Assembly (NCBI RefSeq): GCF_009711085.1
Contig: NZ_WMKA01000018.1
Span: forward strand, 1 to 41,590
Reading direction: 5' to 3'
Source of the DNA: Cellulosimicrobium composti
Lineage (GTDB): Bacteria > Actinomycetota > Actinomycetes > Actinomycetales > Cellulomonadaceae
Length of the DNA stretch: 41,590 bases
Numbering within the stretch: position 1 is the stretch's first letter; each line of letters opens with the position of its first letter. The position numbers and the translations under genes are program-made. Shown piece after piece: positions 27,192-31,598 of this stretch. Under the pieces are notes generated by a model. That model searched no databases and had not been told where the DNA came from. It worked only from the letters and a program-made list of their open reading frames with translations.

Positions 27192-28832
27192 GTGGCCTCA
27201 ACCCTGTACCGCGGTGGCGTGATCCACTCCTCGGCCGACCCGTTCGCCGAGGCCCTCCTCGTCGACGACGGCGTGATCGCCTGGATCGGCGCCGACGACA
27301 CGGCCGACGGGCTCGCCGCCCGCGCCGACCGCGTGATCGACCTCGACGGCGCGCTCGTCGCGCCCGGCTTCGTCGATGCCCACGTCCACCTGTTCGAGGT
27401 CGGGCTCGCCCTCGCGGGCGTCGACCTGTCCGCGAGCGCCGGCGTCACGTCGCTCGCGGCCGCGCTGGAGGCGGTCGCGAAGGCGGCGGCCGCGTCCGGG
27501 GACGACGACGTGGTGCTCGCGTTCGGGTGGGACGAGCGCGCGTGGCCGGAGGGGCGCCCGCCGACGCGCGAGGAGCTGGACGCGGCCGCGGGCGGGCGTG
27601 CGGTGTACGCGGCGCGCGTGGACGTGCACTCGGCGGTGGTGTCGAGCGAGCTCGCGCGTCGGTGCGGACTGGAGGGGCGCGCGGGCTGGGACGCGTCGGG
27701 CTGGGTGTCCGGGGAGGCGCACCACGTGGCGCGGGACGTGGCGCGCGACGTGTCGCCGGCGCGGCGCACGGAGCTGTACCGGTCGGCGCTGCGCGCGGCG
27801 GCGGAGCAGGGCGTGGTGTCGGTGCACGAGATGAGCGCCCCGTACATCGACACGCGTGCGGGGCTGCGCGAGCTGCTGGAGCTCACGGCGGACGCGGCCT
27901 CGGGGCTGGCGCACGTCGTGGGGTACCGGGGCGAGCTGTGCACGACGGTCGACGACGCGCGCGCGCTGCTCGCGGACGTGCCGGGCCTGACGGGGATCGC
28001 GGGCGACCTCAACGTGGACGGGTCGATCGGGTCGCGGACGGCGGCGATGCGCCTGCCGTACCAGGACGGGCCGGACCGGTCCGCCCGGGGGTCGCTCTAC
28101 CTGAGCGCGGAGCAGATCGCGAACCACCTGTCCGCGGTCGGGGCGGCGGGCACGCAGGGCGGGTTCCACGTCATCGGGGACCGGGCCATGGACGAGCTGG
28201 TGCTGGGCCTGAAGGTCGCGGCGGAGGTGCACGGGCAGGGCGCGGTGCGTGCGGCGCACCACCGGGTGGAGCACGCGCTGTTCGTGGACGCGACGGCGCT
28301 GGCGACGCTGCTGCTGTTCGGGGTGAGCCTGAGCATCCAGCCGGCGTTCGACGCGGCGTGGGGCGGCCCGGACGGCATGTACGCGGCGCGCGTGGGCGCG
28401 ATGCGCGCGCAGGGGCTGAGCCCGTTCGCGGACCTCGCGGGCGCGGGCGTGCCGCTCGCGTTCGGGTCGGACGCTCCGGTGACGCGGATCGACCCGTGGG
28501 CGGGGGTGCTGGCGGCGATGTCGCACGTGGACCCGGACCAGCAGATCTCGGCGCGGGCGGCGTTCCGGGCGCACACGCGCGGCGGGTGGCGCATCGCGGG
28601 GCTGGACCACACGGGTGCGGGGCAGCTGCGGGTGGGGGCGCCGGCGCACCTGGCGGTGTGGCAGGGCGAGCACCTGGTGGTGCAGGGCGCGCTCGGGCGT
28701 CAGACGTCGTCGTGGAGCACGGACGCGCGTGCGGGACAGCCGCTGCTGCCCGAGCTCGGGCCGGACGTGCCGCGGCCCCGGTGCCTGCAGACGGTGCGGG
28801 CGGGCGTGCCGCTGTACGACACGTTCGTCTGA
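27192..28832 (+). CDS. Amidohydrolase family protein (YtcJ/amidohydrolase 3-like)
   Basis: A 546-residue metal-dependent hydrolase. The metal motif VDAHVHL (His64, His66) follows the N-terminal beta-sandwich. Later come GDLNVDGSIGSRTAAM, GGFHVIGDRAMDELV, AAHHRVEHALFVD and the catalytic aspartate in FGSDAPVTRIDPWAG. The end (APAHLAVWQGEHLVVQG) restores the sandwich domain. Substrates of YtcJ-like proteins are mostly unknown. It starts with GTG. It sits between helY and the lnt-ppm unit. Codons are markedly G-ending. Confidence 0.85.
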   Translation: MASTLYRGGVIHSSADPFAEALLVDDGVIAWIGADDTADGLAARADRVIDLDGALVAPGFVDAHVHLFEVGLALAGVDLSASAGVTSLAAALEAVAKAAAASGDDDVVLAFGWDERAWPEGRPPTREELDAAAGGRAVYAARVDVHSAVVSSELARRCGLEGRAGWDASGWVSGEAHHVARDVARDVSPARRTELYRSALRAAAEQGVVSVHEMSAPYIDTRAGLRELLELTADAASGLAHVVGYRGELCTTVDDARALLADVPGLTGIAGDLNVDGSIGSRTAAMRLPYQDGPDRSARGSLYLSAEQIANHLSAVGAAGTQGGFHVIGDRAMDELVLGLKVAAEVHGQGAVRAAHHRVEHALFVDATALATLLLFGVSLSIQPAFDAAWGGPDGMYAARVGAMRAQGLSPFADLAGAGVPLAFGSDAPVTRIDPWAGVLAAMSHVDPDQQISARAAFRAHTRGGWRIAGLDHTGAGQLRVGAPAHLAVWQGEHLVVQGALGRQTSSWSTDARAGQPLLPELGPDVPRPRCLQTVRAGVPLYDTFV

Positions 28833-28842
28833 GCGCCACCGC

Positions 28843-28870
28843 TTGACAGGGGCGTGAGCCGGAGTAGTTT
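28843..28870 (+). promoter_or_regulatory. Sigma-70-type promoter in the gap before lnt
   Basis: A perfect -35 box TTGACA (28843-28848) and TAGTTT (28865-28870) are separated by 16 bp, just after the amidohydrolase stop codon. Transcription would start near 28877, over 200 nt upstream of the lnt start codon, giving a long leader or a separate RNA. Confidence 0.65.
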
Positions 28871-28876
28871 CGTGGG

Positions 28877-29027
28877 GGTGTTCCGGCCCCCGCGGCCGCA
28901 GGGGGATCAGCCACCGACGACGACCCCTCGGCGTGCCGCGCCGGGTACCTGGCCGGGCTCGCGCGCTCAGTAGAAAACGTGCTGCGTCGGTGGCGGCGTC
29001 GTACGGGCCGAAGGGCGCGCGAGCCCG
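28877..29027 (+). ncRNA. Candidate structured RNA or leader upstream of lnt
   Basis: The ~150 nt after the promoter hold a small GGGGG-N8-CCCCC hairpin (28873-28890), a perfect 10-bp complement 28910-28919 / 28985-28994 (GCCACCGACG with CGTCGGTGGC), and a 15-bp stem 28954-28968 / 29013-29027 with one G-U pair. The second and third are interleaved, so together they would form a pseudoknot, or else exclude each other as a switch. No open frame with a family match covers the region. I could not match it to tmRNA, RNase P RNA, SRP RNA or the 6C RNA. lnt seems to have an additional leaderless promoter after it, which fits an independent small RNA as well as a leader. Confidence 0.4.
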
Positions 29028-29067
29028 CACGCACCGCCCGACCCGGGTCGTGTGCAGGTGCGTGGCG

Positions 29068-29073
29068 TAAGGT
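29068..29073 (+). promoter_or_regulatory. -10 box of leaderless promoter for lnt
   Basis: TAAGGT ends 6 nt before the GTG at 29080 and no Shine-Dalgarno sequence is present. It would give lnt-ppm transcription independent of the upstream promoter at 28843. Confidence 0.45.
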
Positions 29074-29079
29074 GCACCC

Positions 29080-30792
29080 GTGCACGCCCCCGAGCCCACG
29101 GCCGCCCCGGCCGGGAGGTCCCGCCCCTCGGCGCCGGGCGCTCCCGACCCGGCCCCCGCCGCGTCCGACCGTCACGACCCCGGCGCCGCGGGCTCCCGCA
29201 CCCCCGCCTCGCCCCCGTCGCTCCCGCTCGCGCTGCTGCTCGCGGCCGCGGGCGGCCTCGTCACCGACGCGGCGTTCCCCGACCGCGGCTGGTGGCCGCT
29301 CGCGTTCGTGGGCGTGGCCGCGCCGTTCGTGGCCCTCCGTGCCGGGGGCGCGCGGCGCGGGTTCCTCGTCGGGCTCGTGTGGGGCCTCGCGTTCTTCCTG
29401 CCGCACCTGTGGTGGGCCCGGTACGCGACGGAGACCGTGCCGTGGGTCGCGCTGTCCGTGATGGAGGCGTGCTTCGTCGGCGTGGTGGGCGCGGCGTGGG
29501 CCCTGGTGCGGCGCCGGTCCTGGCTGGCGGACCGCCCGGGCCGGCAGGCCGTGGCGTTCGCGGTCCTGTTCGTCGCGGCCGAGCAGGCGCGCAGCGAGGT
29601 CCCGTTCGGCGGGTTCCCGTGGGGGCGGCTCGCGTTCTCCCAGGCCGGCTCCCCGCTCGGGCGTGCCGCATGGCTGGGCGGGGAGGTCCTCGTGTCCCTC
29701 CTCGTCGCGCTGGGCGGCTCCCTCCTCGCGGTCGCGGTGCTCGCGCTCGCGGCACGTCGCGACGTCGTGCGGCGGGCCGTCGTGCCCGTCGCGGTCGCGG
29801 GCGCGCTCGTCGCGGCGCCCCTCCTCGTGCCGCTCGACACGCGCGCGCAGGCGGGCACGCTCGCGGTGGGGGCCGTGCAGGGCAACGTAGGCGAACCGGG
29901 CCTGGGGTCGTTCGCGAACCGGGCCGAGGTGCTCGACAACCACCTGCAGGGCACGCTCGCGCTCCTGGACCAGGTCGAGCCGGGCGACCTCGACGTCGTG
30001 CTGTGGCCCGAGAACGGGTCCGACCTCGACCCGCAGACCGCTCCCGACGTGAGCCGCGCGATCGACGACGCCGCACGGGAGGTCGGGGCGCCGATCCTCG
30101 TCGGCGCGCAGGAGTACCCCGAGACCGGCGGCCGCTACAACGTCGCGCTGCTGTGGGAGCCGGGCGCGGGCGTCGTGGACCGGTACGCCAAGCAGCACCC
30201 CGCCCCGTTCGGGGAGTACATCCCGCTGCGGTCGCTGCTGCGCGTGTTCTCCGACCAGGTGGACCGCGTGACGATCGACATGATCCCGGGCGTCGGGACG
30301 GGCGTCGTCGACCTCGCGTCGGACCGGCTCGGGCGCACCGTGCCGCTCGGCGTCGTCATCTGCTTCGAGGTCGCGTACGCCGGGCTCGTCGACGACGCCG
30401 TCGCCGCGGGCGCCGAGGTGCTCGTCGTGCCCACGAACAACGCGTCCTTCGGGTACACCGCCGAGTCGACGCAGCAGCTCGCGATGTCGCGCCTGCGCGC
30501 GATCTCCACGGGGCGCGCGACCGTGCAGGTCTCGACCGTCGGCGTGAGCGGCGTCATCGCGCCCGACGGCACGCTGCTGCAGAGCACGGGGCTGTTCACC
30601 GCCGACCAGGTGGTCGCCGACCTGCCGCTGCGCACGAGCCTCACCCCGGCCGTGCGGGCCGGGGCGTGGCCGGGGCGCGTCGTCGAGCTCCTCGCGCTCG
30701 GGGCGCTGGCCGCCGCCGCGGTGGCCGCGGTCCGCGAGCGCCGCGCGTCGCGCACGGACGGCGGCGACGCGCCCCGGGGCGGGGCCGCGTGA
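29080..30792 (+). CDS. lnt: Apolipoprotein N-acyltransferase
   Basis: A 570-residue membrane enzyme. After a ~45-residue Pro/Ala-rich cytoplasmic leader come five to six transmembrane helices (residues ~48-245, with [14 protein letters not shown]), then the periplasmic nitrilase-like domain with the catalytic triad Glu311 (WPENGSD), Lys371 ([14 protein letters not shown]) and Cys429 (VVICFEVAY), and a final membrane helix near 540. It adds the third acyl chain to lipoproteins. Its stop overlaps the start of the polyprenol-phosphomannose synthase gene (GTGA); in M. tuberculosis the two activities are fused in one protein, Ppm1, so this is the split form. Confidence 0.93.
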
Positions 30793-31598
30793 GCGCGCAC
30801 CCCGAGGGGATGCCCGGCCGGGTGCTCGTCGTCGTGCCCACGTACGACGAGGCGCTGACGCTGCCGGGCACGCTCGCGCGGCTGCGCGCCGCGGTGCCGG
30901 ACGCGGACGTGCTCGTGGTCGACGACGCGAGCCCCGACGGGACGGGCGACCTCGCCGACGCCGCGGCCGCCGCGGACCCGGGGGTGCACGTGCTGCACCG
31001 TGCGGGCAAGGAGGGGCTCGGCGCGGCGTACGTCGCGGGGTTCGGGTGGGGACTGGCCGCCGGGTACGACGTGCTCGTGGAGATGGACGCCGACGGGTCG
31101 CACCGGCCGGAGCAGCTGCCGTCGCTGCTCGCCGCGCTGGGCCCGGTGGGCGACGCCGCGGGGGAGCGCGGGGGAGCGGACCTCGTCATCGGGTCACGCT
31201 GGGTGCCGGGGGGCCGGGTGGAGAACTGGCCGCGGCACCGTGAGCTGCTCTCGCGGGCGGGCAACGCGTACGTGCGGCTCGCGCTGGGGCTGCGCCTGGG
31301 CGACGCGACGGCGGGGTTCCGCGCCTACCGGGCGGCGGCGCTGCGGGCGGTGGACCTCGCGAGCGTCGAGTCGCACGGGTACTGCTTCCAGGTCGACATG
31401 GCGTGGCGCGTCGCGCGCGGGGGCGGGCGCGTCGTGGAGGTGCCGATCACGTTCGTCGAGCGGACGGCGGGGCGGTCGAAGATGAGCCGCGCGATCGTCA
31501 CCGAGGCGCTGTGGAAGGTCACGGCGTGGGGGGTGCGCCGGCGCGCGGACGCGGTCGTCGCGGCGCTGCGGCCCCGCGCCCGGCGGGGCGTGCGCTGA
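30789..31598 (+). CDS. Polyprenol monophosphomannose synthase (GT2 family)
   Basis: A 269-residue GT-A glycosyltransferase without membrane helices. It has [32 protein letters not shown], the metal-binding DAD (100-102) in [15 protein letters not shown], the [16 protein letters not shown] motif and the [10 protein letters not shown] / [11 protein letters not shown] / EVPITFVER acceptor-region motifs typical of dolichol-phosphate-mannose synthases. It transfers mannose from GDP-mannose to polyprenyl phosphate, the donor for outer-side mannosylation. The GTG start overlaps the lnt stop, so coupling to Lnt is direct. A basic C-terminal tail ([18 protein letters not shown]) may aid membrane association. 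Confidence 0.9.

Follow-up and report, generated by a model that had tools for sequence, protein, structure and literature searches.

A conserved structured RNA family next to lnt in actinobacteria, probably encoded by a gene of its own

The analysed stretch of DNA, hereafter the window, comprises 41,590 bases and holds, between an amidohydrolase gene and lnt, a promoter followed by a predicted structured RNA. The lnt reading frame overlaps that of ppm (30789-31598; Pfam Glycos_transf_2), and rbpA lies beyond both on the opposite strand. Coordinates refer to the window, and the covariance models cited were built from 20 non-redundant cores (R1), 74 loci (R2) and 99 class-wide sequences (R3, for which 100 loci were offered and one, L290, was unmatched).

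27192..28832, + strand: upstream neighbour, amidohydrolase (Amidohydro_3; Pfam PF07969, E 2.4e-68)
28843..28870, + strand: predicted promoter of the RNA gene, TTGACA (28843-28848), 16-nt spacer, TAGTTT (28865-28870)
28877..29030, + strand: structured RNA of about 154 nt, both ends predicted, the 5' end by the -10 box and the 3' end by the closing stem
28910..28919, + strand: 5' arm of a proposed pseudoknot (unsupported), GCCACCGACG, exact complement of 28985-28994, no covariation
28952..29030, + strand: conserved RNA core, matched at 94.7 bits by R1 and 72.8 bits by R3, scores to be read with the core's own membership of both training sets in mind
28954..28968, + strand: long stem, 5' strand, pairing with 29013-29027 through 14 Watson-Crick pairs and one G-U pair
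28969..28978, + strand: conserved internal loop, 5' side, AGUA-G-AAAAC
28979..29004, + strand: variable apical hairpin, GUGC (28979-28982) with GUAC (29001-29004) and further pairs
28985..28994, + strand: 3' arm of the proposed pseudoknot (unsupported), within the apical hairpin
29005..29012, + strand: conserved internal loop, 3' side, GGGCC-GAA; consensus GGNNCGAA
29013..29027, + strand: long stem, 3' strand, partner of 28954-28968
29068..29073, + strand: -10 box of lnt (leaderless start), TAAGGT, with the GTG start at 29080; separate from the RNA
29080..30792, + strand: downstream neighbour, lnt (LNT_N, CN_hydrolase; Pfam PF20154 and PF00795)

The promoter is as the original prediction had described it. 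The pattern TTGACA-N15-20-TANNNT matches the window once, at 28843, with 0.01 matches expected; among 75 related loci, 57 have a similar promoter 5' of the RNA, as compared to 0.5% in shuffles. The fold energy of the stretch is ordinary (z -1.28; 21 of 200 shuffles fold equally well), as expected at 76.3% GC, and since it does not exceed that of shuffled sequence, the whole case for the RNA rests on comparison between genomes. The element had earlier been matched to none of tmRNA, RNase P RNA, SRP RNA and 6C RNA, in agreement with a search of Rfam 15 (4227 families) in which no family reached its gathering threshold in the window or in 18 related loci; at E ≤ 10, three core regions returned only sub-threshold, unrelated names. 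Among the matches listed in the published literature the RNA is not described, a catalogued but undescribed transcript in the supplements of sRNA surveys being possible.

The stretch is conserved in all 17 genomes of the genus (blastn), and 171 of 200 family genomes show some match at E ≤ 0.01, many of these being short matches elsewhere in GC-rich DNA; 30 family loci were taken forward from these matches. R1 detects the RNA in 76 of the 396 order genomes scanned (33 of 108 genera). R2 detects it in 92 of 150 family genomes (16 of 25 genera) and in 157 of 393 class genomes, among them Streptomyces (57 of 125 genera). Of 396 phylum genomes, 33 are positive with R3, and 13 of these 33 belong to other classes. 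Wherever a scan covered more than 40 genomes, its filters were strict enough to let copies slip, as happened with L290 and G391, and the counts are hence lower bounds. One copy per genome is usual, with two matches in 7 of 157 class genomes; the second match in these (G569, G606, G619, G631, G658, G667 and G668) is a possible paralogue. Several lineages have no detected copy, and the RNA is thus dispensable. Because a renewed search of 24 no-hit genomes with laxer filters gave a single borderline match, in G639 (E 0.0018), besides two others at E 0.66-0.71, absence from such genomes is mostly real, with the reservation that a divergent copy such as L290 can be missed. Eleven genomes of group f22 and seven of f19 gave no convincing match with laxer filters, and both groups may have lost the RNA. 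Carriage by phages was considered and rejected, as a strict-pattern scan of viral sequences returned three stretches of identical sequence that lack the fold and are unmatched by R3.

The predicted 15-bp stem is present in the window, and the compensatory changes that would be expected of a real helix are found among relatives. Across 99 aligned sequences of the class, both partners vary in 20 of the 22 core pairs, and pairing holds in 93.9% of alignment cells; none of 500 shuffles reaches this result, and versions of the model slid along the alignment pair 28.5-54.2% of cells. The order-wide set of 74 sequences behaves likewise, with changes on both sides in 18 of 22 pairs, 94.0% of cells pairing, none of 500 shuffles reaching that result and 29.8-44.6% pairing in slid controls. 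Taken separately, the long-stem helix has 12 of its 13 modelled pairs changed on both sides (99 sequences), and the apical-hairpin helix all eight, with 86.8% of cells pairing. When mapped onto an Lnt protein tree (70 sequences), the 22 pairs together require a minimum of 126 changes from one Watson-Crick pair to another, a count that rests on alignment A3 and one quick Lnt tree with support values left out of consideration; both alignments used, A3 and A4, were made with the structure of the model as their guide and are biased towards it. The helices are thus preserved by compensatory changes in the manner of a structured non-coding RNA, and G-U pairs occur on one strand only (for example UG in 52 and CG in 43 sequences at one pair), which points to the + strand. 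The covariation and the tree count together mark both helices, long stem and apical hairpin alike, as real and kept by compensatory change.

These data also bear on whether the element is RNA at all or merely a palindromic DNA element or a terminator in GC-rich DNA. Its high GC content and unremarkable energy would suit such a reading, and 16 of 94 loci give a weak score on the other strand, too. However, the strand-specific G-U pairs, the far higher score on that same strand, the fixed letters of the loop and the promoter of its own leave this reading with a negligible share of our belief. We consider it very well supported by sequence comparison that the RNA constitutes a new family with a conserved structure.

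A further element of the original prediction, namely a pseudoknot or two mutually exclusive folds, fared differently. Its starting observation stands: in the window the 10-bp match between 28910-28919 and 28985-28994 is exact, interleaves with the 15-bp stem and has a p value of 0.010 against 200 shuffles. Conservation of the pairing did not follow. Among 24 relatives with a related loop, none of the ten pairs shows changes in both partners, and the share of paired cells is 79.9%, as compared to 79.8% in shuffles and 78.2% when the arms are slid by three columns. The arms vary little, so that the power of this comparison is low and its outcome denotes a lack of support, not a disproof; where variation does occur, pairs break (47 of 234 cells). 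Inspection by eye shows an A-C mismatch that leaves 7+2 pairs in the nearest relatives and 5-7 pairs in more distant ones, and a single compensated pair in L031, which was left uncounted, rows L031-L033 being badly aligned in the 5' arm. Extending the comparison to matches between apical loop and upstream sequence in 98 loci (108 offered, ten dropped for a short loop or flank) gave p ≤ 0.05 in four, the window included, which is about chance. The pseudoknot is therefore rejected as a conserved feature on the grounds of the 0 of 10 covarying pairs and the 4 of 98 loci, and within the genus of the window the two arms may still touch locally. A different pseudoknot in L303, between GGGGAAGG and CCUUCCCC, was likewise rejected, as sister sequences lack the full 5' arm.

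How the RNA relates to the genes behind it bears on whether it is a leader or a gene in its own right. In the order set, lnt lies downstream on the strand of the RNA in 71 of 75 oriented loci, and was not found beside it in L086, L093, L104 and L106; ppm adjoins the RNA with no lnt found in L093, L106, L130 and L202, the last a named Streptomyces locus. In L086, neither the amidohydrolase gene nor lnt was matched alongside the RNA copy. The gene order of the class reads helicase, (amidohydrolase), RNA, (lnt), ppm, rbpA, individual members being absent in places, and the RNA shares its strand with lnt or ppm wherever either was found. This constant orientation, along with an internal loop of riboswitch-like conservation, speaks for a cis-acting leader of lnt/ppm, i.e. 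a riboswitch or attenuator. Against this, the -10 box of lnt that had been noted behind the element (TAAGGT) proves to be a general feature: TANNNT precedes the in-frame start by 5-8 nt in 50 of 52 lnt genes as compared to 1.5% in shuffles, the 52 being those of the 71 in which an in-frame start follows the RNA ahead of the first aligned residue. A box so near the start implies a leaderless mRNA from which the RNA would be absent, read-through being possible. Moreover, lnt persists where the RNA is not found. In eight family genera lacking the RNA by R2, 62-183 nt separate the end of the amidohydrolase match from the first aligned Lnt residue (no. 38-50), a gap that could hardly accommodate the RNA; these genera do have lnt. 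These loci (L280-L286 and L288), with amidohydrolase and lnt close together, are possible natural empty sites. Conversely, tblastn with the window's proteins matched none of lnt, ppm and amidohydrolase in nine of ten loci of other classes within up to 1.5 kb on each side (less in L310, L316 and L317, where the flanks are shorter). In three other-class loci (L303, L313 and L318), a reading frame for an ABC-type ATPase faces the RNA from the other strand, as judged by eye. Because lnt has a leaderless promoter of its own and the RNA occurs without lnt, the RNA is probably a separate gene, and a leader function appears rather unlikely. Of the two options first offered for the upstream promoter, a small RNA or a regulated leader, a structured RNA with its own promoter and apparent independence of lnt thus stands, and the leader recedes.

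The most constant part of the RNA is the asymmetric internal loop between long stem and apical hairpin, which is almost invariant and can be written 5'-C-ASUA-GAMAAC / 5'-GGNNC-GAA-G. On its 5' side GANAAC is found in 99 of 99 sequences, preceded by AGUA in 69 and ACUA in 16 of the 99; on its 3' side GGNNCGAA is found in 93 of 99, and the pair G28973-C29009 is G-C in all 99. The arrangement AGUA/GAA presumably resembles the bulged-G (sarcin-ricin) motif, since in most members of the family C-AGUA-G faces C-GAA-G. However, as AGUA is confined to 69 of 99 sequences and variants including ACUA, AACA, CGUA and CAUA occur, the strict motif is not universal. This distribution of conservation also weighs on the reading as a trans-acting antisense sRNA that would pair with mRNAs via its apical loop or its 5' domain. 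In its favour are a separate, apparently regulated promoter, the motif ANCCRG in the apical region of 28 of 99 sequences and AGCCAG motifs in Streptomyces; yet the best conserved part lies within the long stem and is not an open seed, and the apical hairpin differs between clades. We regard antisense action as unlikely, albeit worth keeping in view.

Regulation of the promoter is suggested by a short sequence upstream of it. TGACCTGC or its complement occurs at -260 to -40 relative to the core in 45 of 74 loci, with 0.9 expected (one of 75 loci was dropped for a short flank). Among the 34 loci with both a site and a matched promoter, the end of the last forward TGACCTGC lies 12-13 nt upstream of the -35 box in 16 and 31-32 nt upstream in 17, leaving one exception. 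In L064, half-sites lie 108 and 89 nt before the core; such half-sites are often paired 19 nt apart among the loci. The tandem arrangement TGACCTGC-N11-TGACCTGC occurs exactly once per genome in all 18 carriers chosen for having it, always at the RNA by position, and is absent from two genomes included as a contrast, the window's genome and one of the Streptomyces group; no TGACCTGC sites are present in the window's own genus. Across 317 genomes of the order, 30 tandem pairs were found in 29 genomes and none for the reversed control, with 22 of the pairs at RNAs known from the R1 order scan, one at an RNA found afterwards and seven elsewhere. The one found afterwards is that of G391, where the tandem pair led to an RNA (45.5 bits) that the R1 order scan had missed. 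An exact tandem pair at the RNA is present in 22 of 66 RNA carriers of the draw, two thirds being without. The seven pairs away from a detected RNA (G338, G103:C13, G462:C343, G294, G320, G307 and G366) may be chance or may mark further targets of the same regulator. We consider the TGACCTGC half-sites a candidate operator of a putative regulator.

For the Streptomyces-type loci, a strict-pattern scan returned at least 119 stretches, and among the matches listed (n=80) 77 are from Streptomyces, one from a Streptomycetaceae bacterium and two from Actinotalea; group f35 g135 of our genome set presumably is Streptomyces. Flanks were long enough in 78 of these 80 named loci; a promoter was matched in 70 of the 78 (a proportion given without a shuffle control), and 43 non-redundant ones were aligned, including one Actinotalea (L176). 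The promoter lies 174-193 nt before the core in 36 of 40 printed loci and 110-128 nt in the others, so that the RNA would be longer there; its predicted length is roughly 115-270 nt depending on the clade. The consensus fold of the 43 aligned Streptomyces-type loci has the 5' part of the RNA closed by a helix GUCCACC/GGUGNGAC. GCAGGT or ACCTGC occurs within 60 nt before the -35 box in 57 of 70 loci, with 2.5 expected from mononucleotide shuffles, and GCAGGT ends 10 nt before that box in 44 loci. The full texts searched contained no paper on such an RNA under scr1422-scr1425 or the presumed numbers SCO1423 and SCO1424.

Based on the conservation of helices, loop, promoter and upstream sites, we propose that the element is a standalone, regulated gene for a structured non-coding RNA with a partner-docking internal loop, and not an lnt leader, a reading to which we assign a probability of about 0.6. 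The RNA would be transcribed from its own promoter under the control of a DNA-binding regulator, largely dedicated to it, at the TGACCTGC sites, and would act in trans, the internal loop docking a protein (or a ligand or another RNA) and the helices serving as its frame. The loop is favoured as the docking site because its sequence is fixed, in contrast to that of the helices. A regulated non-coding RNA with a docking site in its internal loop is thus the best fit of the conservation pattern, as opposed to a result. More tentatively, at a little below even odds, we would go further and regard it as an ancient actinobacterial gene, older than the class Actinomycetes and comparable in rank to 6S/Ms1, i.e. 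a regulated ribonucleoprotein with a largely dedicated transcription factor whose TGACCTGC site serves almost only that RNA.

A structured RNA family that spans a phylum and is missing from Rfam is unusual. As the RNA is present in Streptomyces and in many relatives that can be grown and mutated, the RNA, its partner and its regulator can be sought in one organism, a search made feasible by the fixed locus, the almost fixed loop and, in many groups, the near single-use upstream site. The covariance model in turn allows the gene to be marked in many genomes.

Among known systems, three invite comparison. The strand GGUCCGAAGG presumably resembles the Ro-binding strand of vertebrate Y RNAs, a likeness that would extend to YrlA and suggest a Y RNA of bacteria that associates with a Ro (TROVE) protein. 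Yet no Ro gene was found in the window's genome (G000) or in 25 of 30 RNA-bearing genomes tested, TROVE being detected in five of these 30 and in two of 30 RNA-lacking genomes, and Rfam gave no Y or YrlA match; this identity is highly improbable and is rejected for the window's genome, barring a further Ro-like protein there. 6S RNA shares a rod with an internal loop between GC stems, and a decoy of the 6S/Ms1 type that binds RNA polymerase would also fit the near neighbour rbpA; in contrast to 6S, the loop here is small, asymmetric and almost fixed in sequence, and there is no Rfam match. Ms1 (MTS2823, scr3559), described in the excerpted text of PMC9130861 as an actinobacterial relative of 6S, is likewise a structured non-coding RNA that occurs across the same phylum at an intergenic locus of its own. 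It differs, as far as the excerpts of PMC9130861 and PMC11077062 go, in a locus adjoining the HAD-IB hydrolase gene, a 6S-like fold and RNA polymerase as its partner, no sign of which is seen here, the neighbours of our RNA being amidohydrolase, lnt, ppm and rbpA and not a HAD-IB hydrolase; in addition, the excerpted S. coelicolor RIP-seq report names only scr3559 and scr0792 on polymerase (PMC11077062). With a different locus and no Rfam match, identity with 6S or Ms1 is rejected, and we hold a polymerase decoy to be very unlikely. The RNA described here is new at the level of the family, standalone bacterial non-coding RNAs being already known as a kind. Families such as 6S and tmRNA have often pointed to a general cellular function.
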